This document shows, one piece after another, positions 3,725 through 23,467 of a DNA stretch of 23,522 nucleotides. Numbering within the stretch: position 1 is the first letter of the stretch; each line of letters begins with the position of its first letter. The notes below the pieces were generated by a model. The model searched no databases, had not been told where the DNA came from, and saw only the letters and a list, made by a program, of their open reading frames with translations. This DNA comes from a virus. The position numbers were made by a program, and so were the translations under genes. The stretch covers positions 1 through 23,522 of IMG/VR virus record IMGVR_UViG_3300042691_004022; one strand, 5' to 3'.

Positions 3725-4458
3725 TGACACAAGTTAATGAAGGACTAACAGCAGGCGATCTTCGCATGTTAGTTGACAACATATTTGAAGTTGACAGTTA
3801 TGCTAGTAAGATGGGCGAAGACAAAGACATTGTTGTACTAGCATTTACTGTAAAAAATCAAGAACCTGCACAAGATCTAGTTGAATTTGTAGAAAACGGT
3901 TATGATTTTGTATTAGATGCAGATGCTAGCCCCGGCGAGCTTAGTGACGGAAAATATAAAGTGTTTGTAGAAATTGAACGTAATCGTCGAATTGCAGAAC
4001 AGATTATAGAACTTTTAAACGGTATTGGTAAACTAGCTGACTTAGATGATTTTAAATTTAGATACCACAAGAGTTTTAACAGTATTGATGCAGACGCTGA
4101 TAATTTAAGTAATACTATTCCAAAAACCAAAGACGAGTATGAGATTAATATTCAAGAAAATGTTATGAACAACTTTAGTAACTTTTTCGGACGTAGTTTT
4201 TTAGAAGCAGTTAGTGTTGACCATAATGATATTGTGTTCCAACGTAAGTTTGCAGAACCGTTGCGTATGAGAATTTCAGACTTTGGAACAACCGCACAAG
4301 TATATGACAATATTACAGGTCCGATTATGTTAGAAGGTAATGCAATGAGTGAGATCATGTACTTTACCAAGTACGTGGGCAACTATAATATTACTAAAGT
4401 TGGTGATAAATTTGTTTTTGAGAACGGCAGATACGCCGTAGCATTGGAGAAAATTTAA
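3724..4458 (+). CDS. Conserved phage protein of unknown function, probable virion component
   Basis: This 244-residue acidic protein has no transmembrane segments and no recognisable catalytic motif. The N-terminal part (residues 6-90) has alternating helices and strands around MLVDNIFEVDSYASKMG and IVVLAFTVKNQEPAQDLVEF. The C-terminal part is predicted beta-rich (SFLEAVSVDHNDIVFQRKF to the end). It is translationally coupled to both neighbours by 1-nt overlaps (TAATG at each end). It lies between the Ala/Pro-tailed protein and the spanin genes in a late transcription block. A structural or morphogenesis role is inferred from context only. Confidence 0.75.
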   Translation: MTQVNEGLTAGDLRMLVDNIFEVDSYASKMGEDKDIVVLAFTVKNQEPAQDLVEFVENGYDFVLDADASPGELSDGKYKVFVEIERNRRIAEQIIELLNGIGKLADLDDFKFRYHKSFNSIDADADNLSNTIPKTKDEYEINIQENVMNNFSNFFGRSFLEAVSVDHNDIVFQRKFAEPLRMRISDFGTTAQVYDNITGPIMLEGNAMSEIMYFTKYVGNYNITKVGDKFVFENGRYAVALEKI

Positions 4459-4973
4459 TGTGGCAATTTCAATGGATGTTAGGTTTAATACCTGAGTGGG
4501 TGTGGACTACATTATTAGTAGGCAGCGTGATAGGAATACTGTCAGCATGGTTATTAAAGCGTATACCATTTGTTAGTCAGTATAGATTTCCTATACAGGC
4601 AGTTAGTGTTGCAAGTTTATTAGTTAGCATATGGTTTATAAGTGCCAACAGTACTAATGCAGTATGGGAAGCTAAAGTTAAAGACTTAGAGGCTAAAGTA
4701 AAACTAGCTGAAGAACAATCTACTGAGAAAAATGTAGAAATACAAGAAAAGGTTGTTACACAGACCAAAGTGATTAAAGAAAAGGGTCAAGACATTATCA
4801 AATATGTTGATCGATGGAACACTAAAGAGGTAATCAAAGAAGTCGAAGGTCCTGAAAGAATTAGACGAGAAGAAGTGATCAAATACATTGAAAACTGTCC
4901 TGTTCCTAAGGAAATGATAGATATACATAATCAAGCCACAGAATTAAACAAAGCAGCAGAGGGCAAGAAATGA
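4458..4973 (+). CDS. i-spanin (Rz-like) inner-membrane lysis protein
   Basis: This 171-residue protein is predicted to link the inner membrane to the outer-membrane o-spanin and fuse the two at lysis. Two hydrophobic helices are visible (about 8-34 and 46-63). The short loop between them carries K, R and R, so the positive-inside rule predicts N-out/C-out topology. A long charged coiled coil follows (about 68-140, many K/E heptads). The C-terminal segment NCPVPKEMIDIHNQATELN resembles the conserved ending of many phage Rz proteins (Cys-Pro, then I-H-N). The next gene overlaps it by 4 nt and encodes a short lipoprotein, the classic Rz/Rz1 arrangement. Two membrane helices instead of the single one of lambda Rz is unusual. 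The call is well supported by topology and context. Confidence 0.8.
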   Translation: MWQFQWMLGLIPEWVWTTLLVGSVIGILSAWLLKRIPFVSQYRFPIQAVSVASLLVSIWFISANSTNAVWEAKVKDLEAKVKLAEEQSTEKNVEIQEKVVTQTKVIKEKGQDIIKYVDRWNTKEVIKEVEGPERIRREEVIKYIENCPVPKEMIDIHNQATELNKAAEGKK

Positions 4974-5236
4974 AATACCTTGCTATACTTTTAACTACAT
5001 TATTAGTTGCATGTTCAACTCCTGTACCCGTTAAGCCTAAATTTCCAGAAGCTCCGCAGGCATTAAAAGAAAAGTGCGAGCAGTTAAGAAAAATTGAAGG
5101 TGACAAAGTAGCAATAACAGAAATGTTAAAAGTTGTAATACACAACTATACCTTATATTACGAATGTTCAACTAAAGTAGAAGGTTGGCAAGAGTGGTAT
5201 GATACACAAAAGAAAATATACGAGAACATAAAATGA
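4970..5236 (+). CDS. o-spanin (Rz1-like) outer-membrane lipoprotein
   Basis: This 88-residue lipoprotein has a lipobox LLVAC with the acylated cysteine at position 15. Residue +2 is Ser, so outer-membrane sorting is expected. After a short Pro-rich stretch (STPVPVKPKFPEAPQ), the mature part has an EKCEQLRKIEGDK helix and a VIHNYTLYYECSTKVEGWQEW segment. These resemble larger Rz1-type proteins that follow Rz genes in myoviruses. Two more cysteines (about 36 and 56) could form disulfides with each other or with the spanin partner. The start overlaps the i-spanin stop (ATGA) and the stop overlaps the next lipoprotein's ATG. It acts with the i-spanin in the last step of lysis. Confidence 0.8.
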   Translation: MKYLAILLTTLLVACSTPVPVKPKFPEAPQALKEKCEQLRKIEGDKVAITEMLKVVIHNYTLYYECSTKVEGWQEWYDTQKKIYENIK

Positions 5237-5454
5237 AAATTACATTAATCATTGCAACAATGTTGTTAGCAGGCTGCGCCACTAATCCAGAAGTACAAAA
5301 ATCAATATCTAAAGATCAAACCATGGATAAGATGGCTAAAGCTGCTCTAATAAATGAAATGTTAGTTAGCCCTGATCCAATAGTACGTGCTAAAGGTGCT
5401 GATATTGCAGAGAAGTTTCTAGTAGAACCAAAGAAGAACTTATTTGGATTTTGA
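5233..5454 (+). CDS. Small lipoprotein of unknown function
   Basis: This 73-residue protein has a signal peptide and lipobox LLAGC (Cys15) followed by Ala-Thr, predicting outer-membrane location. The mature 58 residues are mostly helical and charged (KSISKDQTMDKMAKAALINEM, VRAKGADIAEKFLVEP). No family is recognised. It overlaps the o-spanin gene by 4 nt and lies in the lysis block, so a helper role in envelope disruption or superinfection exclusion is possible but unproven. Its stop codon touches the late-type motif that precedes the next gene. Confidence 0.75.
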   Translation: MKITLIIATMLLAGCATNPEVQKSISKDQTMDKMAKAALINEMLVSPDPIVRAKGADIAEKFLVEPKKNLFGF

Positions 5455-10499: not shown

Positions 10500-10865
10500 A
10501 TGAAAATTTTTGAACTGTACAATCCTAATATAAAACGAGAAGAATTTGATCTAACAGATGATCTTATCTTTTTCATGAGAAACGATCCGCAATTTTATCG
10601 CCAGGATTATCATCCATTTATACAGAAATTTAATCGTCACTGCGATGCTGGTAGACAAGTAAGTGCTAAAGCATTTGTACCCATTGTAAAACATGCATTT
10701 GAGTGCTATAAAAATAGTTTCCCAGTTGAAGGAATGGAAGATACTTTATCAAGTCAAGATTTAGAAGAGGTATGCGACAAACTACAATCTGAAGAACATA
10801 ATTTCTATCACGACGAAAAGAAAAAGAACACAGAGAAAAAAGATGAAATTAAGACAACTTTTTGA
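10500..10865 (+). CDS. Conserved small phage protein of unknown function
   Basis: This 121-residue soluble protein has no recognised fold. The N-terminal MKIFELYNPN start is followed by a helical region with a run of aromatic residues (FFMRNDPQFYRQDYHPFIQKF) and the segment AKAFVPIVKHAFECYKNSF. The last about 20 residues are highly charged (DEKKKNTEKKDEIK). No good Shine-Dalgarno sequence is visible before the ATG, so initiation may be weak. The reading frame is otherwise protein-like and its 3' end overlaps the next gene by 23 nt. It is the first gene of the second late block and is probably a virion or morphogenesis protein by context. It seems to be conserved in cyanophage-type genomes from memory. 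Confidence 0.7.
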   Translation: MKIFELYNPNIKREEFDLTDDLIFFMRNDPQFYRQDYHPFIQKFNRHCDAGRQVSAKAFVPIVKHAFECYKNSFPVEGMEDTLSSQDLEEVCDKLQSEEHNFYHDEKKKNTEKKDEIKTTF

Positions 10866-12099
10866 ATCTAAGGCGCCGAGTGTAGGAATTATATTCGGAA
10901 GATTTAATCCTCCGCATCAAGGGCACGTTAAGGCATGGGAAATGGCTAGTGAAAATCCAGCGTGGTTTGTAGGTACTAATCAAAGTACACAAGGACCCAA
11001 GGATCCATTACCTTACGATATTAAAGTTAAAGCCATGCTAGCAGTTATGCCTGAAGTTAAAGGACACATTGTCGCTGAGACTAGTTGGTTAACACTGGCC
11101 AGTAAAGTTTACAAAAAATATGGCGACACAGTTCTTAACGTGTATACAGATGAAGACTGGGTTACTAAAGCTCTAGTTCAGTATAACGGCAAAGACGGTG
11201 CTCATGGCTATTACAATTTTTCAAATATAGAACAACAACCTACTCCTAGATTAAGTTCTGCAACAGCTCTTAGAGCAGCAGTACAAGCGGGAGATAGAGA
11301 AGCGTTTGCTCAGGCAGCAGGTGTTCCTTCTGATACTCCTGTAGCAGGACATCCATTCTTTGATGTAGTAGCACACTATCTAGCACCTCATGCAGAAAAA
11401 GAAAAAGTTAAGGCTGCTAAGAAAAAAGTTAAACAACCAGAGCAAGATGTAGCAGAGAATGATTTCAAAGATACACTCTATGAGTTATCAAATGAATTTC
11501 TAGGTCGTTATAAAAAAGCTGCTGCTGCTGATGCTAAAAAAGCAGATGCAGAAGGTGACTACGATCGCGGCAACAAACGTTTTTCGGGCATTGTCAAAGC
11601 AACTAAGAAACAGTTTGCCAACGATGAGAAAAGTGTAGCGGAAAACAAATTAGGTGAAATGATTCCTTGGCCAGTTGTTGCTAATAAGATCGGTAGTGCT
11701 ATGAAAGCAATGGGCTGGAAAGCACAGCGTAAAGGTGACGATGCATTTATGTTTAGCACTAAAGGTGCAGAAGATGAAAGTCAATACTACATGGTTATGA
11801 TTGACAACGAAGGTGACGGCATGTTCTCCTATGCACTAGGAACATTTGAAGGCGGACGTCCTGACATTGGCGAACACGGTAAACTACCAACAACCGAAGC
11901 CAGCGTAAGTGAAGTTTTGATGGCTATCCGTGACGGGTATGGATTAAATGAGATAGTAGCTGAAAATGCTTGGGATAGATTACAGCGTGAAAAGGCTTTA
12001 GAGTCAGCAGGTGTTGGTATTATAACAAAACAGAATACAACTGTCGATGTAAATAAGAATACACCAAAGAAGAATCTAAAGGCATTTAGGTTAATATAA
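10843..12099 (+). CDS. NMNAT-like nucleotidyltransferase fused to modular phage domains
   Basis: The protein has 418 residues. After a leader MKLRQLFE, residues 13-160 form a nucleotidyltransferase domain: GRFNPPHQGH (HxGH signature) and PRLSSATALR (the ISSTxxR motif). YTDEDWVTKAL lies between them. The substrate is unknown; NMN, a phosphoalcohol or a sugar phosphate are possible. Three V-A-E-N tetrapeptides at 203-206, 265-268 and 372-375 divide the remainder into modules. The first (206-267) contains FLGRYKKAAAADAKK and NKRFSGIVKATKKQF. The second (268-374) is a mixed alpha/beta domain with GSAMKAMGWKAQRKGDDAFMF. The third is a short basic tail. Each tetrapeptide and the leader end (L-F-E before Ser9) resembles a T4 gp21 prohead-protease site. 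The nucleotidyltransferase call is firm; virion packaging is a hypothesis. Confidence 0.82.
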   Translation: MKLRQLFESKAPSVGIIFGRFNPPHQGHVKAWEMASENPAWFVGTNQSTQGPKDPLPYDIKVKAMLAVMPEVKGHIVAETSWLTLASKVYKKYGDTVLNVYTDEDWVTKALVQYNGKDGAHGYYNFSNIEQQPTPRLSSATALRAAVQAGDREAFAQAAGVPSDTPVAGHPFFDVVAHYLAPHAEKEKVKAAKKKVKQPEQDVAENDFKDTLYELSNEFLGRYKKAAAADAKKADAEGDYDRGNKRFSGIVKATKKQFANDEKSVAENKLGEMIPWPVVANKIGSAMKAMGWKAQRKGDDAFMFSTKGAEDESQYYMVMIDNEGDGMFSYALGTFEGGRPDIGEHGKLPTTEASVSEVLMAIRDGYGLNEIVAENAWDRLQREKALESAGVGIITKQNTTVDVNKNTPKKNLKAFRLI

Positions 12100-12320
12100 T
12101 GGATGAACTGGCACAATTAAAACGCCTAGCCGGTGTTAATAGTTACAAAGGTCTAACACCATATGACATTAACGAAGGCAGTAATATTAGTATTACGGGC
12201 AACGAAAAAGGGCAGTTGATGAAGACGCACAATATTAAACCAGGTACCCCAGATTGGTTTAAGTTATGGTTTAGCTTGCCGTATATGACAGGTGAAAAAC
12301 CAATAGGAGACAACAGATGA
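12099..12320 (+). CDS. Small conserved phage protein
   Basis: This 73-residue soluble protein has no known domain. The N terminus MDELAQLKRLAG is a short amphipathic helix like those of neighbouring genes, and an I-N-E before Gly follows at about residue 26. The C-terminal half has the aromatic-rich segment KPGTPDWFKLWFSLPYMTGEKP, which seems familiar in marine T4-like phages beside the endolysin. It overlaps the preceding stop by 1 nt (TAATG) and the endolysin start by 4 nt (ATGA), so it is translated in a coupled series. The function is unknown. Confidence 0.72.
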   Translation: MDELAQLKRLAGVNSYKGLTPYDINEGSNISITGNEKGQLMKTHNIKPGTPDWFKLWFSLPYMTGEKPIGDNR

Positions 12321-12949
12321 GTTTTGAATTTGATTTTACACTAGATAAGGTAACACATTTACTACACAAAAATCGAGAGCCAGAATTTTGGTACAATGCT
12401 ATGAATGAGTATTTGCCAAAATTTGGCATTACTACTGCGGCTCGTGTTGCAGGATTTGTAGCACAAGGACAGCACGAAAGTGCAGACTTTACTATTTTAC
12501 AAGAAAATCTAAACTATAGTGCAAAAGGTCTACGTGGTATATTTGGAAAATATTTTCCAGACGATACCATTGCAAATCAGTATGCTAAAAAGCCAGAAAT
12601 GATTGCTAACCGTGTCTACGGTGGACGTATGGGTAATGGTCCAGAAGCGTCAGGTGATGGATACAAGTTCCGTGGTCGTGGTATATTACAGTTAACAGGT
12701 CGTGCAAACTATACACAATGCTCACGTGATTTGTTTGGTGACGACACACTCGCTAACGATCCTGATCTAGTGCGTACACCAGAGTACGCTATTATTACAG
12801 CCTGCTGGTTCTGGTACAAGAACAAGCTAAACGAAATCTGCGACAAGGGCGATATTGTATTGCTAAGTAAACGCATCAATGGTGGAACTATTGGTTTAGA
12901 AGATCGTATCAAACACTGGAACGATGCACTAGACGTGTTTGAAGGCTAA
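12317..12949 (+). CDS. Endolysin, glycoside hydrolase family 19 (chitinase/lysozyme-like)
   Basis: This 210-residue muralytic enzyme cleaves the glycan strand of peptidoglycan at lysis. The GH19 signature is present: catalytic Glu54 in AQGQHESADF, the second acidic residue Glu63 in LQENLNYSA, then KFRGRGILQLTGRANY and the C-terminal SKRINGGTIGLEDRIKHW. No signal peptide or membrane anchor is visible, so export depends on the holin at 6070. It is unusual that the endolysin is 6 kb away from the holin/spanin genes and sits among modular virion-like genes. A role as a virion-associated lysin at entry is therefore an alternative. It starts in the overlap ATGA with the previous gene. Confidence 0.93.
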   Translation: MSFEFDFTLDKVTHLLHKNREPEFWYNAMNEYLPKFGITTAARVAGFVAQGQHESADFTILQENLNYSAKGLRGIFGKYFPDDTIANQYAKKPEMIANRVYGGRMGNGPEASGDGYKFRGRGILQLTGRANYTQCSRDLFGDDTLANDPDLVRTPEYAIITACWFWYKNKLNEICDKGDIVLLSKRINGGTIGLEDRIKHWNDALDVFEG

Positions 12950-12950
12950 T

Positions 12951-14405
12951 ATGTTTTTAAGAGAATTGATGCAAAGGATCGATCAAGAGGATTTCCATCC
13001 TAATGATCTGCCGCCTGGTCCGGAAACTAAACCTACTATGCCCGCAGGTACTGTTAAGGTAGATGTTGATGATGTCTACGATTGGTACAAGTTAGGTCAG
13101 CATATTAGTAATATGAAAGGTTTAGGCAAACACGACTTTGGCAAGGGACCTCCTAGCACTATATTTTCCTTTGGCAGCGAAGAAGAAGAACACAAATATA
13201 TTAACGCATTAAAAAAGACAGGTCTCACTACTACTGATATCGATCCATTGGATCCTAATCAACCCAAAGGTATGCCTCGTCAGAAGACCGATCCTACTTA
13301 CAATGTAGGCGAGGCTAAGAAACGTAAGCGCAAAGCTCGTCGTACTGCAGGTACTTCTGCAGCATACGGTCCTGGACCTTATGGTGGCTATGGATACTAT
13401 GCTGGCTACAGCGGAGATAGCTCCGGCGGTGGTGACGGCGGAGGTGGCGAAAGTGTTAATCGTGGTGTGGCGGAAGGCGTCCCTCAACCGGGGCCAAGTT
13501 CAGGTGCTCCAAAACAGTTTGGACCCGATGCTAAAATACAAACTCGACAAATGACTGTAAAAGATATTATATCATCTGTGCCAGGGGTGCCTTATTATAA
13601 TAATGTAGTTGATGATTGGGACGCCAAAGATTATAGTTGGGGTGTCACTAAAAAAGTTATAGAGTATGCTACTTACTTGAAGGATCATCCAGAAAGTTTA
13701 GCAAAGTTGCCACCAGCAATAGTATTAAACGGTAAGTTTGAAGATGGCGCCCATAGAGTATCTGCCATATGGTTGTTACAACAAAGAATGGATCCTAAAA
13801 ATCCCTTGTGGAAAAATGCTAAATTAAATGTTCAGTTTGTTAAGCAAGGTGTGGCGGAAAACTTTGCTGATGGAAAGAATCCACAAGACAAAGGTGACAG
13901 CAAGCGTCACGGTATCAATACTAAAGCATCAGTAAGTAGTTTACGTAAGACTGCTAAACAAGGTGGACGTAAGGGCCAGTTAGCACATTGGCTTGCTAAT
14001 ATGAAAGCTGGTAAGGCTAAAAAGAATGAAACATTAACAGAAGCTGTTATTCATCCTAGTACTATGGATGCACTAGAAGACTTCTTACCATTTGTAATGA
14101 AGTTGCTAAAGCTAGATAAGCTGCCTAGAATTAGTGTACATAAAACTATCGAAACTGGTGATCAACCTAGCTTTGGTGGGTATAATCCAGCTGACGGCAC
14201 TATACAGTTGGCGCTTAAAGATCGTCATCCTGCAGATGTACTTAGAACACTGGCACACGAACTAGTACACTTTAAACAAGATCAACAGGGCGAGCTTGAT
14301 GAACAAAGTGGCGCTACTGGTAGCAATGAAGAAAATGAAGCAAATACTAAAGCAGGTATTATCATGCGTCATTTTAACAAAAGATTCCCGCAATATTTGG
14401 AATAA
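12951..14405 (+). CDS. Modular protein: ParB-like domain + basic module + HExxH metallopeptidase
   Basis: The protein has 484 residues. Residues 1-118 include VDVDDVYDWYKLGQHISNMK and KHDFGKGPPSTIFSFG, familiar from cyanophages but of unknown role. Residues 122-172 are a Lys/Arg patch, then a Gly/Tyr-rich stretch. Residues 176-303 hold a ParB/sulfiredoxin-like domain (PAIVLNGKFEDGAHRVSAIWLL). Residues 304-364 are a basic module with SVSSLRKTAKQGGRKGQLAHW. Residues 365-484 hold a zincin peptidase: H436-E-L-V-H440, with a downstream ENEAN as the likely third zinc ligand. Boundaries coincide with V-G-E-A (119-122), V-A-E-G (173-176), V-A-E-N (301-304) and L-T-E-A (362-365). The start is ATG 12951, with GAAGG 5 nt before it. 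The peptidase motif is clear; targets are unknown. Confidence 0.82.
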   Translation: MFLRELMQRIDQEDFHPNDLPPGPETKPTMPAGTVKVDVDDVYDWYKLGQHISNMKGLGKHDFGKGPPSTIFSFGSEEEEHKYINALKKTGLTTTDIDPLDPNQPKGMPRQKTDPTYNVGEAKKRKRKARRTAGTSAAYGPGPYGGYGYYAGYSGDSSGGGDGGGGESVNRGVAEGVPQPGPSSGAPKQFGPDAKIQTRQMTVKDIISSVPGVPYYNNVVDDWDAKDYSWGVTKKVIEYATYLKDHPESLAKLPPAIVLNGKFEDGAHRVSAIWLLQQRMDPKNPLWKNAKLNVQFVKQGVAENFADGKNPQDKGDSKRHGINTKASVSSLRKTAKQGGRKGQLAHWLANMKAGKAKKNETLTEAVIHPSTMDALEDFLPFVMKLLKLDKLPRISVHKTIETGDQPSFGGYNPADGTIQLALKDRHPADVLRTLAHELVHFKQDQQGELDEQSGATGSNEENEANTKAGIIMRHFNKRFPQYLE

Positions 14406-14408
14406 CTT

Positions 14409-14597
14409 ATGCGAATAAAAGAAATATTAGTTAAAGAAGACGCTACTGCTGGCGCAACTAGTGCAGGAAATGTAAGTGTTGGTGCTGTTTATAAGAATAA
14501 AATGGGCAAGACTTATAAGAATAAAGACGGTACAGCAAAAAATGCCTTAGATATTAAGGGGGCTAATTTACTCACCGGTGGCAGCTTAAAACGATAA
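14409..14597 (+). CDS. Short phage protein with capsid-targeting-like leader
   Basis: This 62-residue protein has the leader MRIKEILVKE, which resembles the about 10-residue capsid-targeting leader of T4 internal proteins (MKTYQEFIAE), with a V-K-E before Asp11. The remainder is small-residue rich (DATAGATSAGNVSVGAVY) followed by basic YKNKMGKTYKNKDGTAKN. No fold is recognised. It follows the metallopeptidase gene by 3 nt. Its TAA stop lies inside the late-type motif GATAAATA of the next gene. A small internal-head or DNA-condensing protein is a reasonable guess, but only that. Confidence 0.68.
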   Translation: MRIKEILVKEDATAGATSAGNVSVGAVYKNKMGKTYKNKDGTAKNALDIKGANLLTGGSLKR

Positions 14598-14600
14598 ATA
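14593..14600 (+). promoter_or_regulatory. Late-type promoter motif overlapping a stop codon
   Basis: GATAAATA is identical to the motif at 10449 and 7 of 8 to T4 TATAAATA. The TAA at 14595-14597 is the stop of the preceding gene. It ends 24 nt before the ATG at 14624. Confidence 0.6.
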
Positions 14601-14623
14601 CAACGATATTGGAGAATCCCCAA

Positions 14624-15730
14624 ATGCAAGACAACATGAATATGATGAACAGACCAGATAACCACGAAGCTAAAATGGCTCGTGCCGATCTATTTAAGTG
14701 CGCTCAATACAGCTTTAAGCTGTTTAAAATGATACAAGAAGATCAAGAGCTAGAAGGATGGGTACAGGCTAAGATTACCAAAGCTGCTGATTACATTGCT
14801 AGTGTATATCACTACATGGAATACGAAATGAAGATTAGCGAGTATGGTGATGCAATTGAAAACGCTGACATGTATTCAGAAAGCATTCGTCGTGCATTTG
14901 CACAACAGCTAACAGAAGCTAAGAAACAGGCTGTTAAAGCTAAAGATGACATGAAGAAGAAAGAAAAAGCACTAGACGAAGAACGCAGTTCAACTGGTGG
15001 TGAGATTGATCGTTCTAAGAAAGGTGTTACTAAGCATAAAGAAAATCCAAACAGATTCAGTGACGAAGAGCATACTGAGCCTAAGTCACAAGCAAAGTCA
15101 AAGTCTGCTGCTGAGAAAGCAGGTGACAAAGCCCACGATAAAGCACAAGAGAAAGATAGTAAAGCATGGGGCAAAGCTAATCCAGGTAAACAAACTATTA
15201 TGAAGGGTGGCGTTAAAACCACCAACGAGACTGCTGTTCCTATGAATCCTGATGGCGCTACAGCTCCGCCAAAAAAGAACCCTAAGACAGGGCGTTATCC
15301 AGTAATCACTTCTGGTCCTAATAAAGGTAAAGAGTGGAGTGCTGCTGCACCTGGTCCAACAAATCCTGCAATGAAAGAAGGCAAGAAGCCAGATTTCTTA
15401 GACATGGACAAAGACGGCGACAAGAAAGAGCCAATGAAGAAGGCAGTTGCTGATAAGAAAGCAGGACCACAGAAAGGTGTTAATCCTTTTGCTAAAGTAA
15501 AAGAAGCTGCTGACAAATGTAATCACACTGCAAAAGGTAAGTCATGCCCAGTACACGGTCTAAAAGAATGTGGTAGTATGTATGAAGGTGACAAGTTTGA
15601 TCCATTGAAGCACGTTAAGAATCCTACCAAAGGTGAAAAGACTGCGGCTAAAGATGTTAAGCGTGGTAGCTACGGAGATCGTGCAGCCATGTTGAAGTCA
15701 GCAGAAAAAGACGGTCGCTTAAAGGGTTAA
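14624..15730 (+). CDS. Modular lysine-rich phage protein, probable virion/internal protein
   Basis: The protein has 368 residues. Residues 10-85 form a helical domain (EAKMARADLFKCAQYSFKLF, VYHYMEYEMKISEYGDAI) that I recall from cyanophages. L-T-E-A at 96-99 ends it. The middle (100-260) is a low-complexity, Lys/Ala/Glu-rich chain. The C-terminal part has PDFLDMDKDGDKKEPMKKA, an EF-hand-like acidic loop, then CNHTAKGKSCPVHGLKEC, whose Cys and His spacing could bind zinc. V-K-E-A at 292-295 precedes this Cys/His segment. The start is ATG 14624 because GGAGA lies 8 nt upstream; an upstream in-frame TTG would fall on that site. A structural or packaged protein is inferred from the late motif and composition. 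No enzyme is recognised. Confidence 0.75.
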   Translation: MQDNMNMMNRPDNHEAKMARADLFKCAQYSFKLFKMIQEDQELEGWVQAKITKAADYIASVYHYMEYEMKISEYGDAIENADMYSESIRRAFAQQLTEAKKQAVKAKDDMKKKEKALDEERSSTGGEIDRSKKGVTKHKENPNRFSDEEHTEPKSQAKSKSAAEKAGDKAHDKAQEKDSKAWGKANPGKQTIMKGGVKTTNETAVPMNPDGATAPPKKNPKTGRYPVITSGPNKGKEWSAAAPGPTNPAMKEGKKPDFLDMDKDGDKKEPMKKAVADKKAGPQKGVNPFAKVKEAADKCNHTAKGKSCPVHGLKECGSMYEGDKFDPLKHVKNPTKGEKTAAKDVKRGSYGDRAAMLKSAEKDGRLKG

Positions 15731-15734
15731 TATC

Positions 15735-16487
15735 ATGGACATGAAGAAAATACTCCAAGCAATGGATGGCGTTAAGGCCAAAGCTGAAGTAAATTCTTCA
15801 GACATGAAAAAGTTTCTTACTATTGTAGAAGGTAAAGGACCGTTAAACCGTTCTACTACTGCAGAAGCATTAACAATGCAACACTACACAGAACCAAAGA
15901 AAACAATCACTGCTCCAGTACTTAATGTAGCAGAAGGTGCAACGCCAAGTATGATTGGCAAGTACTTTGCTACTGTAGAACAAGAATTAAAAGAAGCTGC
16001 TGCTCGCCCTAATGAACGTGCTCGCCAATTAGCAGAACGTGTCATTGAGCGTGTAACTCAAAACGCAGACGGGTCATTACCTGATCCAAGTATCAATCGC
16101 CTAACAGGCAAACCTAATCCTCCAGCAGCAGAACCTGCACCAGCACCTAGTAATGTAAAGCCGGGTGGCGCAACTGTAGAGTACGGTGGTGAAACGTACG
16201 ACGTGACAGTATTTGGTGACAAAAGTATTAGACCAAGAATAGCACGTAGTGACAAAGTTGTTAGTGCTAAGGTTTATACAATGGGCAACAAAATGTTTGT
16301 GATATTAGATTCACCAGCTCAAGAAGGTGTAACAGAAGATAAAGATCCTTGCTGGGACAGCCATAAAATGGTTGGTACAAAAAAGAAAGGTGGCAAGACA
16401 GTTCCTAACTGTGTGCCTAAAGAAGCAGTTAATCCTGCACAACAGGCAGCTATTGCTATTGCAAAAAAGAAAGCAGGTAAGAAATAA
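15735..16487 (+). CDS. Conserved modular phage protein, probable virion/internal protein
   Basis: The protein has 250 residues. The N terminus is MDMKKILQAMDGVKAKAEVN, then a second leader-like stretch MKKFLTIVEG in which I30-V-E32 precedes Gly. Another possible processing site, V65-A-E67-G68, follows. Residues 70-105 are a charged helix (EQELKEAAARPNERARQLAE). A Pro/Ala linker (about 127-145) leads to a small beta-rich domain (VEYGGETYDVTVFGDK to KMFVILDSP). The C terminus has CWDSHKMVGTKKKGGKTVPNC, a short Cys-flanked basic motif seen (from memory) in several marine T4-like proteins. AAAGGG about 8 nt before the ATG fits a start at 15735. The function is unknown. It is coupled to the Dps-like gene by a 1-nt overlap. 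Confidence 0.73.
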   Translation: MDMKKILQAMDGVKAKAEVNSSDMKKFLTIVEGKGPLNRSTTAEALTMQHYTEPKKTITAPVLNVAEGATPSMIGKYFATVEQELKEAAARPNERARQLAERVIERVTQNADGSLPDPSINRLTGKPNPPAAEPAPAPSNVKPGGATVEYGGETYDVTVFGDKSIRPRIARSDKVVSAKVYTMGNKMFVILDSPAQEGVTEDKDPCWDSHKMVGTKKKGGKTVPNCVPKEAVNPAQQAAIAIAKKKAGKK

Positions 16488-16924
16488 TGGACGAGCTCAA
16501 AAAAGCAATGAAGATTGCATTTGCTAGTGAATATGCATTTGCTATTAAAGCACAAAACTTTCATTGGAATGTAGAAGGTCCGCTGTTCCCGCAACTACAC
16601 ATGTTGTTTGCTACAGTTTATGAAGAAGTATATGGTGCAATTGACGACTTTGCAGAAAATATTCGCAAGTTAGGATCATACACACCTGCTAGTTTCCAAC
16701 GCTTTTCAATGCTAACACAAGTTGAAGATGAATTAAACATGTTAGAAGATAGAGCTATGATTGCAGAATTACTGCAAGACAGTGATAAAATGGTTAAATT
16801 GTTAAAGATAGTATTTGATCTTTCTGAACAAGCAGGCGAACACGGATTAAGTGACTTTATAGCAGGCCGCATGGATGCACATCGCAAGCACAGCTGGCAG
16901 CTAAGGGCTACTTCTAAAGAATAA
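16487..16924 (+). CDS. Dps-like ferritin (mini-ferritin family)
   Basis: This 145-residue four-helix protein belongs to the Dps/ferritin-like superfamily. The diagnostic stretch is AQNFHWNVEGPLFPQLHMLF, followed by GAIDDFAENIRKLGS. Dps forms 12-mers that oxidise and store iron and can shield DNA. Aligning without gaps to the E. coli Dps ferroxidase site from memory, H26 and H38 (H51, H63), D53 and E57 (D78, E82) are kept, but the residue equivalent to Asp67 is Ala42. Iron chemistry may therefore be altered. It has no DNA-binding Lys-rich tail at the N terminus. The C-terminal DAHRKHSWQLRA is typical of the subgroup. It starts with TAATG overlap after the preceding structural-type gene. It could protect phage DNA from oxidative damage or take iron; alternatively it may be a structural ferritin-fold protein. 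Confidence 0.85.
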   Translation: MDELKKAMKIAFASEYAFAIKAQNFHWNVEGPLFPQLHMLFATVYEEVYGAIDDFAENIRKLGSYTPASFQRFSMLTQVEDELNMLEDRAMIAELLQDSDKMVKLLKIVFDLSEQAGEHGLSDFIAGRMDAHRKHSWQLRATSKE

Positions 16925-17014
16925 GAACACACTACCTTAGGACCTTTGCGTTTTTAAGTGTGGGGAGGCTGCTGCCCGCAGAAAGCGATTCGCTACCGTA
17001 GACTGCTAAGTGAG
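16925..17014. other. GC-richer non-coding gap with several short inverted repeats
   Basis: This non-coding stretch between the Dps-like gene and the next late motif contains CACACT (16928-16933)/AGTGTG (16957-16962) around a T run. It also holds CTGC/GCAG (16969-16981) and the near-perfect hairpin AGCGA-T-TCGCT. CTAC-C-GTAG follows. No tRNA cloverleaf can be drawn and no clean terminator is evident. It may be a decayed gene, a weak terminator or a small structured RNA. Confidence 0.35.
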
Positions 17015-17022
17015 CATAAATA
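17015..17022 (+). promoter_or_regulatory. Late-type promoter motif
   Basis: CATAAATA (7 of 8 to T4 TATAAATA) ends 26 nt before the ATG at 17048, the same spacing as at 3134 and 5454. It stands in a true intergenic region, which makes it the cleanest copy in the window. Confidence 0.62.
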
Positions 17023-17047
17023 TATTATAGATTATTTGGGGAACAAA

Positions 17048-17893
17048 ATGGACTTAAAAGCATTGATGCAAAAGTTAGAAACTATTAACAAAACAGAAAT
17101 TCTAACTGAATCAGAAAAGAAAGAAACAACCTGGACTGACAAGAGCGGTAAAAAGCATCCTGCTACACAAGTCAAAGGCGACAAGTATACAGGCAAGGAA
17201 GCTGAAAAAGACGCTAAGCCAAAGAAAGACGATATAGACGAACATTTCACTAGCGCCATTGCTCAAGCATTAGTTGAAGAATTTGGTTATGAGGTTGAAG
17301 AATCTACGTTAACTGAAAATCCACATGCTAGTGATCCTGCAAAATCAGCAGCATGGGCAGCATTAAGTCCAGAAGATCAAAAGTGGTTAGGCGGTGCTGA
17401 TCCAACTGACCCAGCTATTTTAGCTCGCGCTCCTAACAAAGGTAAGCCGTCAGCACCAGCACCAGGAGGCGCAGCCACTAAGCCAGCAGGTGCACCAGCA
17501 TTAGTAGGAACACAGAACCAAGCACCTGATGCGGCTGCTCAGGCTAGCCGAATTGCTGATAGAATGGATGCAGAAGCAGGTGCAAATACTGCAGGGCAGG
17601 CAGCTGCTCCGGCAGCAGTAGATCCAGCTGCCGATCAACAAACTATTGACCCTGCTAAATTAGCAAGATTTAAAGAACTACTGGCAAAGGCAGCTACTCC
17701 AGCGGCGCCAAAACCTACACAAATTGCTCCTGCTCCTAAGAAGCCAGCAACTGGTGCTTCTACTAAACCATCACAACCGTTACCAGGTGTAACAGGTGTA
17801 CCCGGCGCACAAATTTCAAATACACCAGCAGCAGAATCAGTAACTTACGAAGACGATCAAATATTACTTGCTATTAAAAACGTAAGATTTTAA
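17048..17893 (+). CDS. Ala/Pro-rich modular phage protein, probable virion/internal protein
   Basis: The protein has 281 residues. The N terminus MDLKALMQKLETINKTEILTE ends in L19-T-E21 before Ser, like a processing leader. A short domain follows with TTWTDKSGKKHPATQVKGDKYTG, then an amphipathic helix FTSAIAQALVEEFGYEVEE and L88-T-E90-N91. From about 95 onward the chain is Ala/Pro/Thr-rich with few hydrophobics, probably disordered. It closes with AAESVTYEDDQILLAIKNV. The start is ATG 17048 with GGGGA before it. The frame is open upstream to a GTG at 16958, but that stretch has no ribosome-binding site and would read through the late motif. The function is unknown. It is followed after 1 nt by the peptidoglycan-binding protein gene. 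Confidence 0.73.
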   Translation: MDLKALMQKLETINKTEILTESEKKETTWTDKSGKKHPATQVKGDKYTGKEAEKDAKPKKDDIDEHFTSAIAQALVEEFGYEVEESTLTENPHASDPAKSAAWAALSPEDQKWLGGADPTDPAILARAPNKGKPSAPAPGGAATKPAGAPALVGTQNQAPDAAAQASRIADRMDAEAGANTAGQAAAPAAVDPAADQQTIDPAKLARFKELLAKAATPAAPKPTQIAPAPKKPATGASTKPSQPLPGVTGVPGAQISNTPAAESVTYEDDQILLAIKNVRF

Positions 17894-17894
17894 A

Positions 17895-19010
17895 ATGAAA
17901 GACCCGATCTTAGAATCTTTAAATACCATTCGTAGATTAGAATCGCCTGAGGTTCTAAACGAAGCTGCGGTTGCTGCACCAGCGGCAGCAGCTGGCAAGG
18001 GAATTGGAAGATTTATCCCAGGTGTTGGTGCTGCCTTAGGTGCATATGATGCTTACGGTCGTGCTAAACAAGGTGATTGGGCAGGTGCTGGATTATCAGC
18101 ACTAGGTGGTGCTGCCAGTTTAATTCCAGGTGTTGGCACAGCAGCTAGTATAGGCATTGCAGGTGCTCAAGCACTACGTGATAAACAGCGTACTGGTAGC
18201 TACTTACCAGGCGAAGATGAAATTGCTGCGGCTGTTGCTAAAGATGCGGCTCCACAAGCAGGTGCGGCTAAACCAGCGGCTGCTCCTACACCTCCAGGTG
18301 CTGATCCAAAGGTACTTGCATTACAAAAACAATTAATTGCCAAAGGTGCTAAAATTACAGCAGATGGCAAAATGGGGCCAGCTACACAGGCTGCTATGAA
18401 ACAATTCCCCGGCGTAGCCGTGGCAGAACAAAATAAAGGAAACGATATGTCTGAATCACAAAAAATTGCAGAGCTAAGAGATCGTCTTGCTCAATTAGAA
18501 CAAACTCAACAAGTGGCTGAAGGTCCGTTAGATGCAATTAAGGCTGGCGCTCAAGGTATAGGCAACTTTTTTAAAGGTGCTAAAGCAGGAGCACAAGGTG
18601 GAACTGCCGCTAGTAATGTTGCATCAGGCGCAGCCAATTTAGGCAAAGCCGGAGATAAAGGAATGGCAGCTGCTCAAGCAGTGAAAGGGGCCGGTAATAA
18701 GGTTGCTGGCGCTGTTTCTAATAATAGAGGTAAGTTAGGAGTGGCGGCTGGTGCAGGAGCAATGGCTGCATTGAGTGGTGGTGGCGCAACTAAACCAACT
18801 GATCCAGTTAAGCCTCCAGTTAAGCCAGCAGTTACTCCAACTGCTGATCCAGCAACAGCTTCTGCAACCAGTTTAACTACAGATGAAGAAGGTGAGATGG
18901 GAGTGTTAGCTCAAGAACTCGGAGCACATATGGGCCGCGTTCCAGATCTTGATGCATTGCTATTACAATACGAAAAACTTCGTCCTGGTGCTGCCAACGC
19001 GGCTCCATAA
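17895..19010 (+). CDS. Protein with Gly-zipper hydrophobic segments and a peptidoglycan-binding domain
   Basis: The protein has 371 residues. The leader MKDPILE is followed by Ser8 (I-L-E) and L21-N-E23-A24. Residues 30-95 are a Gly/Ala-rich, weakly hydrophobic region with paired motifs (GRFIPGVGAALGAYDAYG and ASLIPGVGTAASIGIAG) like membrane-active Gly-zipper proteins. Residues 136-172 resemble a PG_binding_1 repeat (VLALQKQLIAKGAKITADGK then GPATQAAMKQF). V176-A-E178-Q and V207-A-E209-G bracket a short coiled coil (SQKIAELRDRLAQLEQ). A second Gly/Ala-rich region (210-290) and a Pro/Ala tail follow. Combining pore-like and murein-binding segments suggests entry through the envelope or a capsid-delivered effector, but this is inference. 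It is the last gene before the strong terminator. Confidence 0.75.
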   Translation: MKDPILESLNTIRRLESPEVLNEAAVAAPAAAAGKGIGRFIPGVGAALGAYDAYGRAKQGDWAGAGLSALGGAASLIPGVGTAASIGIAGAQALRDKQRTGSYLPGEDEIAAAVAKDAAPQAGAAKPAAAPTPPGADPKVLALQKQLIAKGAKITADGKMGPATQAAMKQFPGVAVAEQNKGNDMSESQKIAELRDRLAQLEQTQQVAEGPLDAIKAGAQGIGNFFKGAKAGAQGGTAASNVASGAANLGKAGDKGMAAAQAVKGAGNKVAGAVSNNRGKLGVAAGAGAMAALSGGGATKPTDPVKPPVKPAVTPTADPATASATSLTTDEEGEMGVLAQELGAHMGRVPDLDALLLQYEKLRPGAANAAP

Positions 19011-19356: not shown

Positions 19357-19385
19357 TTGCTCTGTGTAGCTAAGTATGTTATTAT
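19357..19385 (+). promoter_or_regulatory. Possible extended -10 promoter for the dsbA-like gene
   Basis: TGt-TATTAT (19377-19385) is an extended -10 element with a weak TTGCTC (19357-19362) 17 nt upstream. It overlaps the divergent minus-strand promoter, sharing two bases of the -10 elements, so the two promoters should compete. Confidence 0.4.
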
Positions 19386-19412
19386 TATACAATACTTTTA
19401 AAGGAATGTCAA
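19384..19412 (-). promoter_or_regulatory. Perfect-consensus sigma70 promoter for the secreted HExxH gene
   Basis: On the minus strand TTGACA (19412-19407), a 17-nt spacer and TATAAT (19389-19384) match the housekeeping consensus exactly. Transcription should start near 19377, giving a leader of about 26 nt before the ATG at 19351. The -35 element overlaps the start codon of the divergent dsbA-like gene. Confidence 0.88.
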
Positions 19413-19678
19413 TGAGTACACGCATGTATGGGCCTGAAGAAAAAGCCAAATTAGAACGTTTGATCAACGAAGGTAGTACCGTTTTACGTGAAATTGAGGA
19501 TTTGAAAGAAGGGCTCAAAGAAACGGTTAAAGCTGTGGCAGAAGAATTGGAAATTAAGCCAAGTGTTATTAATAAAGCAATAACTATTGCCCATAAAGAC
19601 AATTGGAAAGAGCACGAAAGTGCTTGGGAAGATGTTGAAATGATTTTGGGTGTTACTGGACGCTTGCCGCAAGATTAA
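19412..19678 (+). CDS. dsbA: DsbA-like late-transcription dsDNA-binding protein
   Basis: This 88-residue, mostly helical protein is like T4 DsbA, a small double-stranded-DNA-binding protein that acts with the late sigma gp55 at late promoters. The recognisable part is EDLKEGLKETVKAVAEELEI followed by KPSVINKAITIAHKDNW. This matches the DELGV..MFNRLLALYHKDN region of T4 DsbA in pattern. The start is ATG 19412 because AAAGGA lies 6 nt before it. Two in-frame ATGs upstream (19376, 19406) have no such site and the latter overlaps it. The stop shares one base with the next ATG. The presence of late-type motifs in the window fits with this protein's role. Despite its name it is unrelated to disulfide-bond DsbA. 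Confidence 0.82.
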   Translation: MSTRMYGPEEKAKLERLINEGSTVLREIEDLKEGLKETVKAVAEELEIKPSVINKAITIAHKDNWKEHESAWEDVEMILGVTGRLPQD

Positions 19679-22738: not shown

Positions 22739-23467
22739 ATGCAAGATATTTTAAAAGACCTCGTAGGACATACACACAGTTTAGGCTTTCTACCACTAGT
22801 TAAAATTACTGGTGATAAAGACACTGTAATTGAATCTATGGCCGAAGACCGTAGTGTTATTGTTACTGCAAAAACACACAAGGCAGTTGACGAATTCGAT
22901 GGCGTCTTTGGTATGCCTAACTTAGACAAGTTAGCATTACACTTGAAGAACCCAGAGTACAAAGAAGGTGCTAACATTGAAGTAGTACGTTCACAACGTA
23001 ACGGAGTTGAGATTCCAACTAGTCTGCACTTTGAAAATGCCGCTAAAGACTTTAGAAACGATTATCGTTTCATGAATAGTGAAATTATTAATGAAAAGCT
23101 AAAGTCAGTTAAGTTCAAAGGTGCAAGTTGGGACATTCAGTTTGAGCCAGCAGTAGCAAGTATTCAACGTTTACGTTTGCAAGCGGCAGCACATACTGAA
23201 GAAACAACCTTCCAAGTTAAAACAGAAGGTGGCAACTTAGTATTCTTCTTTGGTGATGCAAGTACACACGCAGGATCATTTGTGTTCCATGCTAATGTAG
23301 ATGGAAAATTAAAGCAGACATGGTCATGGCCTGTGAATCAAGTTATGGCAATTCTTGCACTTGACGGTGATAAGACTATGCGTATTGCAGATGCAGGTGC
23401 TATGCAAATTACAGTTGATTCTGGTCTTGCTGAATACAACTACATTTTACCAGCACAGAGCAAATAA
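22739..23467 (+). CDS. 45: DNA polymerase sliding clamp (T4 gp45-like)
   Basis: This 242-residue protein is the processivity clamp, predicted to trimerise around DNA, tether gp43 and, in T4, also activate late transcription. The T4 protein has 228 residues. The matches are diffuse, as usual for clamps: LPLVKITGDKDTVIES near the N terminus, FDGVFGMPNLDKLALHLKNP, IQRLRLQAAAHTEETTFQV in the centre, and GSFVFHANVDGK and MRIADAGAMQITVDSGL at the end. It directly follows gp43, a normal T4 replication-cluster arrangement, although 44 lies about 22 kb away at the other end of the window. It has its own promoter and AAAGGA before the ATG. The stop shares one base with the next ATG. Confidence 0.9.
   Translation: MQDILKDLVGHTHSLGFLPLVKITGDKDTVIESMAEDRSVIVTAKTHKAVDEFDGVFGMPNLDKLALHLKNPEYKEGANIEVVRSQRNGVEIPTSLHFENAAKDFRNDYRFMNSEIINEKLKSVKFKGASWDIQFEPAVASIQRLRLQAAAHTEETTFQVKTEGGNLVFFFGDASTHAGSFVFHANVDGKLKQTWSWPVNQVMAILALDGDKTMRIADAGAMQITVDSGLAEYNYILPAQSK

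Follow-up and report, generated by a model that had tools for sequence, protein, structure and literature searches.

A phage Dps mini-ferritin whose fifth ferroxidase-site carboxylate may have moved by one helical turn

The stretch of DNA analysed here, which we call the window, is an entire IMG/VR virus record of 23,522 bases, and at positions 16487–16924 of its plus strand lies a gene for a Dps mini-ferritin of 145 amino acids, opening on an ATG and recognised through Pfam, PHROG and PDB matches together with an AlphaFold2 model. That ATG shares one base with the stop codon (taATG) of the upstream gene at 15735–16487, also on the plus strand. What kind of virus carries it? The window encodes a family B DNA polymerase (PHROG 262, 3.3e-202) and a clamp loader (PHROG 168, 1.9e-54), matches that fit the T4-like phage named in an earlier reading made from the sequence only. 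Among isolates, the closest polymerases belong to jumbo phages of about 350–490 kb, among them Sinorhizobium phage Phosso (469 kb; 49.7% identity to the window polymerase) and Agrobacterium phage Atu_ph07 (490 kb), and several contigs of Dps-bearing relatives reach 278–356 kb. Pfam and PHROG matches further point to PhoH, DnaJ, a Clp ATPase, a dCMP-deaminase-like protein and a GH19-type endolysin; the gene at 22739–23467, annotated as unknown in PHROGs, may be the sliding clamp. Toward the other end, 3724–4458 matches PHROG 13138, “virion structural protein” (7.6e-26), and at 4458–5454 a membrane-anchored protein is followed by two short lipoprotein-like open reading frames (ORFs) in a candidate spanin-like layout. 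We place the source of this Dps as a T4-type, probably jumbo, aquatic phage.

The proposal of a Dps-like ferritin is borne out by Pfam Ferritin (PF00210, E 3.7e-18), by PHROG 3636 (4.1e-21) and by the PDB, where Pseudomonas aeruginosa Dps (8ff9) is the best sequence match (3.5e-26) and Dps proteins head the 54 distinct sequences matching at E ≤0.01. The AlphaFold2 monomer (pLDDT 97.5, pTM 0.91, from an alignment using 84 of 95 rows) has helices at residues 2–28, 34–50/52–61, 70–76, 88–115 and 119–143, that is, a four-helix bundle with a short helix in the B–C loop. A structural comparison with bacterial Dps, the check that had been suggested, gives the same answer: 8ff9 is the best solved match in Foldseek (TM 0.95, rmsd 1.2, 31% identity), and Dps entries lead there as well as in VIA-align, where nearly all of the 50 entries listed are Dps and Z runs from 21 to 24. 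Values of dN/dS between 0.013 and 0.089, obtained against seven of the nine relatives compared (dS was saturated for the other two), indicate strong purifying selection; a chance ORF is ruled out by this selection, the family match and the model.

Two other iron-site classes were considered for the protein and rejected. In DpsL proteins the di-iron site is of the bacterioferritin type, lies within a single subunit and features E-x-x-H motifs; the 145 residues contain no E-x-x-H, and PA4880 aligns at 11% identity. A His-type ferroxidase centre, with His in place of the partner-subunit Asp, is contradicted by an invariant D53. Neither terminus carries a DNA-binding-type tail, for helix A begins at residue 2 and the last helix runs to residue 143 of 145. 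Lacking an N-terminal tail, the protein is unlikely to bind or condense DNA in the tail-based manner; the PDB title of 1o9r describes a Dps that protects DNA without binding it.

The inter-subunit ferroxidase residues of a Dps—His, His, Asp and Glu—are found as His26 (16562–16564), His38 (16598–16600), Asp53 (16643–16645) and Glu57 (16655–16657), all on the plus strand. They align with H37, H49, D64 and E68 of P. aeruginosa Dps, named as ligands in PMC10002758, and they are invariant in all 203 distinct viral and all 81 distinct bacterial relatives. Alignment and model together show a predicted Dps fold with strictly conserved H26 and H38 facing D53′ and E57′ of the partner subunit. The fifth canonical carboxylate, which belongs to the His-bearing subunit, is missing from its own column, where translation and the alignment of relatives place Ala42 (16610–16612, plus strand), and Glu46 (16622–16624, plus strand), one helical turn after 42, may substitute for it. 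Four ligands kept and an alanine at 42: the earlier reading had numbered these residues correctly. It had gone on to suggest that such a protein might protect DNA without normal iron oxidation.

Does Ala42 mean a dead site? Pseudomonas aeruginosa Dps (PA0962, 8ff9) has the same fold and the same four iron ligands as the phage protein, and according to PMC10002758 its two irons are held by H37, H49, D64′ and E68′ as the only protein ligands, plus water; the residue at position 42 is not among the ligands named there, and iron is oxidised with H2O2. It differs in having Glu at 42, Thr at 46 and an N-terminal coil, where the phage protein shows Ala42 and Glu46 and lacks a tail. Nostoc punctiforme Dps4 (5hjh, a His-type centre) resembles the phage protein in carrying a nonacidic residue, Asn67, at the position-42 place; by the account in PMC6675082 this Asn is not a ligand, and iron is still oxidised with O2. 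In NpDps4, His stands in for Asp78 and His164 is recruited, whereas the phage Dps keeps Asp53. Among bacterial relatives, 14 of 81 have Met42 with no acid at 46. Ala42 does not, then, point to a dead site, since the four invariant ligands suffice in P. aeruginosa Dps and since NpDps4 and the Met42 bacteria lack an acid there; loss of function through Ala42 was considered and rejected, the invariant core ligands and the active P. aeruginosa and Nostoc proteins being against it. As an observation in its own right, Gln138 (16898–16900) replaces the usual Met or Phe in the window Dps, as it also does in loci L470–L475, and it may occupy the place of NpDps4 His164.

Position 42 itself turns out to be labile. 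Across the window and 80 viral loci, 81 rows in all, it is Gly in 52, Ala in 14, Glu in 11, Asp in 3 and Gln in 1, with H26, H38, D53 and E57 invariant in the same rows; across the 160 distinct sequences of the window-like branch, which comprises those closer to the window than to the Dps of Synechococcus phage S-SRM01, it is G, A, Q, S, K or M, or else D or E. Close homologues retain the acid: two loci whose Dps is 92% (L009) and 88% (L012) identical to that of the window have Glu at 42, and two others, 87% (L013) and 86% (L014) identical, have Asp. On the same face of the helix there is a further acidic residue, Glu46, which is reciprocal with the acid at 42 across the family. These were the two outcomes named beforehand as telling against abnormal iron oxidation at an Ala42 site, and that idea is not supported.

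The reciprocity can be put in numbers. Among the 160 window-like sequences, 57 have an acid at 42 without Glu46, 90 have Glu46 without an acid at 42, four have both and nine have neither; of these nine, five have Asp46 and two an acid at position 50. An acid at 42 or 46 is thus present in 156 of 160, and only 2 of 160 lack one at 42, 46 and 50 alike. Ranked by excess mutual information with the acid at 42, position 46 comes first of 143 columns (0.322), followed by 39 (0.221) and 43 (0.191). A first tree, from which columns 42 and 46 were omitted, implies at least 19 changes of state for the acid at 42 and 24 for Glu46, and a Pagel-type test of the pair gives a likelihood ratio of 70.3 against 17.4 for the best of 93 control columns. 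With columns 35–60 left out of a second tree, the ratio is 87.9 (77.7 when D or E at 46 is counted), and 100 null simulations on that tree gave at most 15.2. A conservative pair test limited to well-supported branches points in the same direction, with only seven independent pairs and a median p of 0.0625; on average 5.1 pairs changed in opposite senses, 0.2 in the same sense and 1.7 not at all. The first tree holds 150 of the 160 window-like sequences (after a 97% identity filter), 8 of 43 S-SRM01-like and 15 of 81 bacterial ones, and the relatives are a nonrandom sample, the best 80 matches per query. In statistical terms, these comparisons show that most window-like phage Dps keep a putative fifth carboxylate at 42 or at 46 and that the two states have exchanged repeatedly.

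At least 120 viral stretches carry the swapped motif; all 118 of the loci fetched hold an ORF matching the Dps profile, 112 of them distinct in sequence. One bacterial phylum gave the swapped pattern in 0 of 398 genomes and the pattern with an acid at 42 in 17 of 150. Among bacterial relatives the acid is at 42, the older-looking state, in 64 of 81, usually beside a Thr or Asn at 46; Glu46 occurs in only one. We found no description of the exchange in the open-access literature searched.

Where would such a carboxylate sit? On an ideal helical wheel, A42 (−14 degrees), E46 (+26), D53 (+6) and E57 (+46) make up one face, with 40 degrees separating A42 from E46; E47 (+126 degrees) falls off it. 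Since H38 with E57′, and residue 42 with D53′, share one site, helix B would pair antiparallel with its two-fold mate, which would bring Glu46 one turn nearer the dyad. Direct iron ligation by Glu46 is doubtful, the residue lying about 6 Å from 42 along the helix axis, and a second-shell, entry or dyad site seems, with due uncertainty, as likely as direct ligation. The reading that we consider best, and think probable on alignments and model, is that of a catalytically competent phage Dps in which the fifth carboxylate has been relocated from 42 to 46.

A somewhat unlikely, though substantial, alternative is that the exchange reflects packing or electrostatic coupling at the two-fold dimer interface, unrelated to iron, with the four-ligand site unaffected. 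Four ligands do suffice in P. aeruginosa Dps, the 14 Met42 bacterial relatives have no acid at 46 to make up for it, and covariation with 42, if weaker, extends to positions 39 and 43 of that helix. Against it, the exchange is specific to acids, one of which is there at 42 or 46 in those 156 of 160 sequences, and the helical wheel puts 46 on the ligand face.

Other groups mark out how far the exchange extends. The Dps of S-SRM01, likewise from an aquatic phage, is about 30% identical to that of the window, with Gly42, Glu50 and no acid at 42 or 46; in the 43 distinct S-SRM01-like sequences, a set that includes more distant members such as L084 and L085, the acid is at 42 in 3, otherwise at 46 in 4 and otherwise at 50 in 36. 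The combination of Gly42 and Glu50 in S-SRM01-like Dps (L082, L222–L301) is possibly a third placement of the carboxylate. In the group L462–L475 (13 distinct rows), a nonacid at 42 accompanies Glu46 in eight rows; L462 has both the acid at 42 and Glu46, L474 has Glu50 only, and an acid at 42, 46 or 50 is missing altogether from L464, L465 and L467, as it is from 17 of the 81 bacterial sequences. Given these exceptions, S-SRM01-like, L464/L465/L467 and bacterial, the fifth carboxylate is dispensable in some lineages, and since the Met42 bacteria manage without it, it may matter little for catalysis. Nor does the position-42 column strictly define the Dps family, being nonacidic in 17 of 81 bacterial relatives. 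In window-like phages, nearly all sequences keep the fifth carboxylate in one form or another.

Might the protein instead travel in the virion, for instance as a head-internal protein delivered with the DNA? We regard this as quite unlikely, and part of the evidence for it comes from the neighbours. T4 capsid-targeting propeptides, as described in PMC9026906, are 10–19 residues long and are cut after L/I-x-E; leaders of neighbouring genes resemble them. Scored as L/I-x-E-[AGS] within 40 residues of the N terminus, such protease-like sites are enriched, over expectations of 3–6%, among homologues of several window genes, all on the plus strand: the nucleotidyltransferase-like gene at 10843–12099 (PHROG 3041, 4.5e-15; leader-like N terminus; 23 of 48, expected 6%), the small gene at 14409–14597 (capsid-targeting-like N-terminal leader; 15 of 32, expected 5%), the gene at 15735–16487 immediately upstream of Dps (17 of 42, expected 6%) and two downstream genes, 17048–17893 (4 of 6) and 17895–19010 (6 of 8). 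The frequency is also high in the 19376 gene (63 of 72, expected 17%); other neighbours show no enrichment (3 of 64, 2 of 28, 2 of 61). A leader resembling M[K/R]I-x-E-I-I-x-E, by a regular expression chosen after examples had been seen, recurs on unrelated proteins, at 30 of 1966 ORF starts vs. 6 of 6251 internal Met and 1 of 1511 bacterial starts. A T4-style leader expression finds 15 of 164 starts vs. 1 of 660 internal Met at the L462–L475 loci, and 5 of 1078 starts at window-like loci. With two leader types in two phage groups (window 10843–19010; L462–L475), a head-cargo operon is possible.

In 149 representative relatives, the surroundings of Dps include homologues of 19376–19678 in 72, DNA polymerase in 57 and the nucleotidyltransferase in 46; an upstream ORF was found in 111, usually with Dps within a few bases of it (commonest gaps +1, −1 and −4). 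The DPCW...VPNC motif of the gene upstream of Dps in the window was found only in close relatives (3 of 149 loci). A T4-type prohead protease occurs in 10 of 23 Dps-bearing records and, with the leader-like sites, makes the gene block look head related. The earlier description of the neighbours as virion-type genes stands in part, on the leader sites of several of them; no family match, though, puts the adjacent genes in the virion.

Dps itself, judged by its sequence, shows no packaging signal. A T4-type propeptide is absent, protease-like sites occurring in 5 of 149 homologues where 11% would be expected, and it lacks the leader that its neighbours have. We found no virion proteome reporting a phage Dps in the literature searched, and the earlier suggestion of a structural component goes unsupported. 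Three BFVD models matching the Dps fold are named prohead protease, which would favour packaging; the prohead proteases of Dps-bearing records are separate ORFs of 208–222 amino acids. In those three entries (A0A6J7XDU5, A0A6J7WIS1 and A0A6J7WPK9) Dps-fold domains lie within longer viral proteins, the protease label being a matter of names only. Viral scans with L304 and A4 gave stand-alone Dps (149–159 codons in the L304 scan) and no fusion to a prohead protease, and searches with PF03420 and PF04586 in the 23 Dps-bearing records found only separate ORFs. A fusion of another kind occurs at L582:6134–6970, where a Dps domain (G42/E46) follows a segment of about 115 residues matching PHROG 2859, of unknown function; it adjoins a PhoH-like ORF.

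The notion of an impaired iron site, in a protein protecting DNA without normal iron oxidation, has in its favour the lack of the canonical carboxylate at column 42 and the existence of Dps with altered sites, but it is very improbable given four invariant core ligands, the reported activity of P. aeruginosa Dps and NpDps4 without a coordinating residue at that place, close relatives that flip state at 42, and the missing N-terminal DNA-binding tail.

How, then, might a competent phage Dps with a relocated carboxylate work? In the infected cell, it would most likely oxidise and store Fe2+, probably with H2O2, and so limit Fenton damage; a small residue at 42, Gly or Ala, would make room for Glu46, and Glu46 would supply the charge formerly provided by residue 42, as a weak ligand or as a second-shell or iron-entry carboxylate. 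PMC7354516 reports strong induction of the host's dps and catalase during a phage infection. Phage-encoded Dps proteins (in Lactobacillus phages, and in Gratiaviridae and 36 other gut phages) have been proposed to relieve oxidative stress or free iron; they belong to other phage groups, and neither the 42/46 exchange nor a head-gene neighbourhood is described in the excerpted parts of those reports (PMC6669764, PMC8008677). For window-like phage Dps, we found no biochemistry in the literature searched.

More tentatively, and as a possibility that we think less likely than not, evolution in phages could have produced a separate class of Dps ferroxidase centre. In it the auxiliary carboxylate would have moved by one helical turn, from position 42 to 46; in S-SRM01-like cyanophages it would have gone to 50, a residue that the two-fold partner would place at a similar level. 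The outcome would be a metal site, shifted or additional, close to the dimer axis and adapted to infected cells, in a protein encoded by a late gene block whose other products go into the head.

In our judgment, the family of this phage Dps is ordinary and the variant interesting. What looked like a broken active site becomes a repeated natural experiment in which one carboxylate moves along a helix, in some pairs of proteins more than 85% identical. Characterised Dps differ on the fifth carboxylate, which goes unused in P. aeruginosa Dps and is included in canonical descriptions, and the natural pairs could show what its role is, whether in the choice of oxidant, in binding of the second iron or in iron entry. 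Many aquatic phages, it appears, invest in the detoxification of iron or peroxide, and they do so beside genes that resemble head-targeted cargo.
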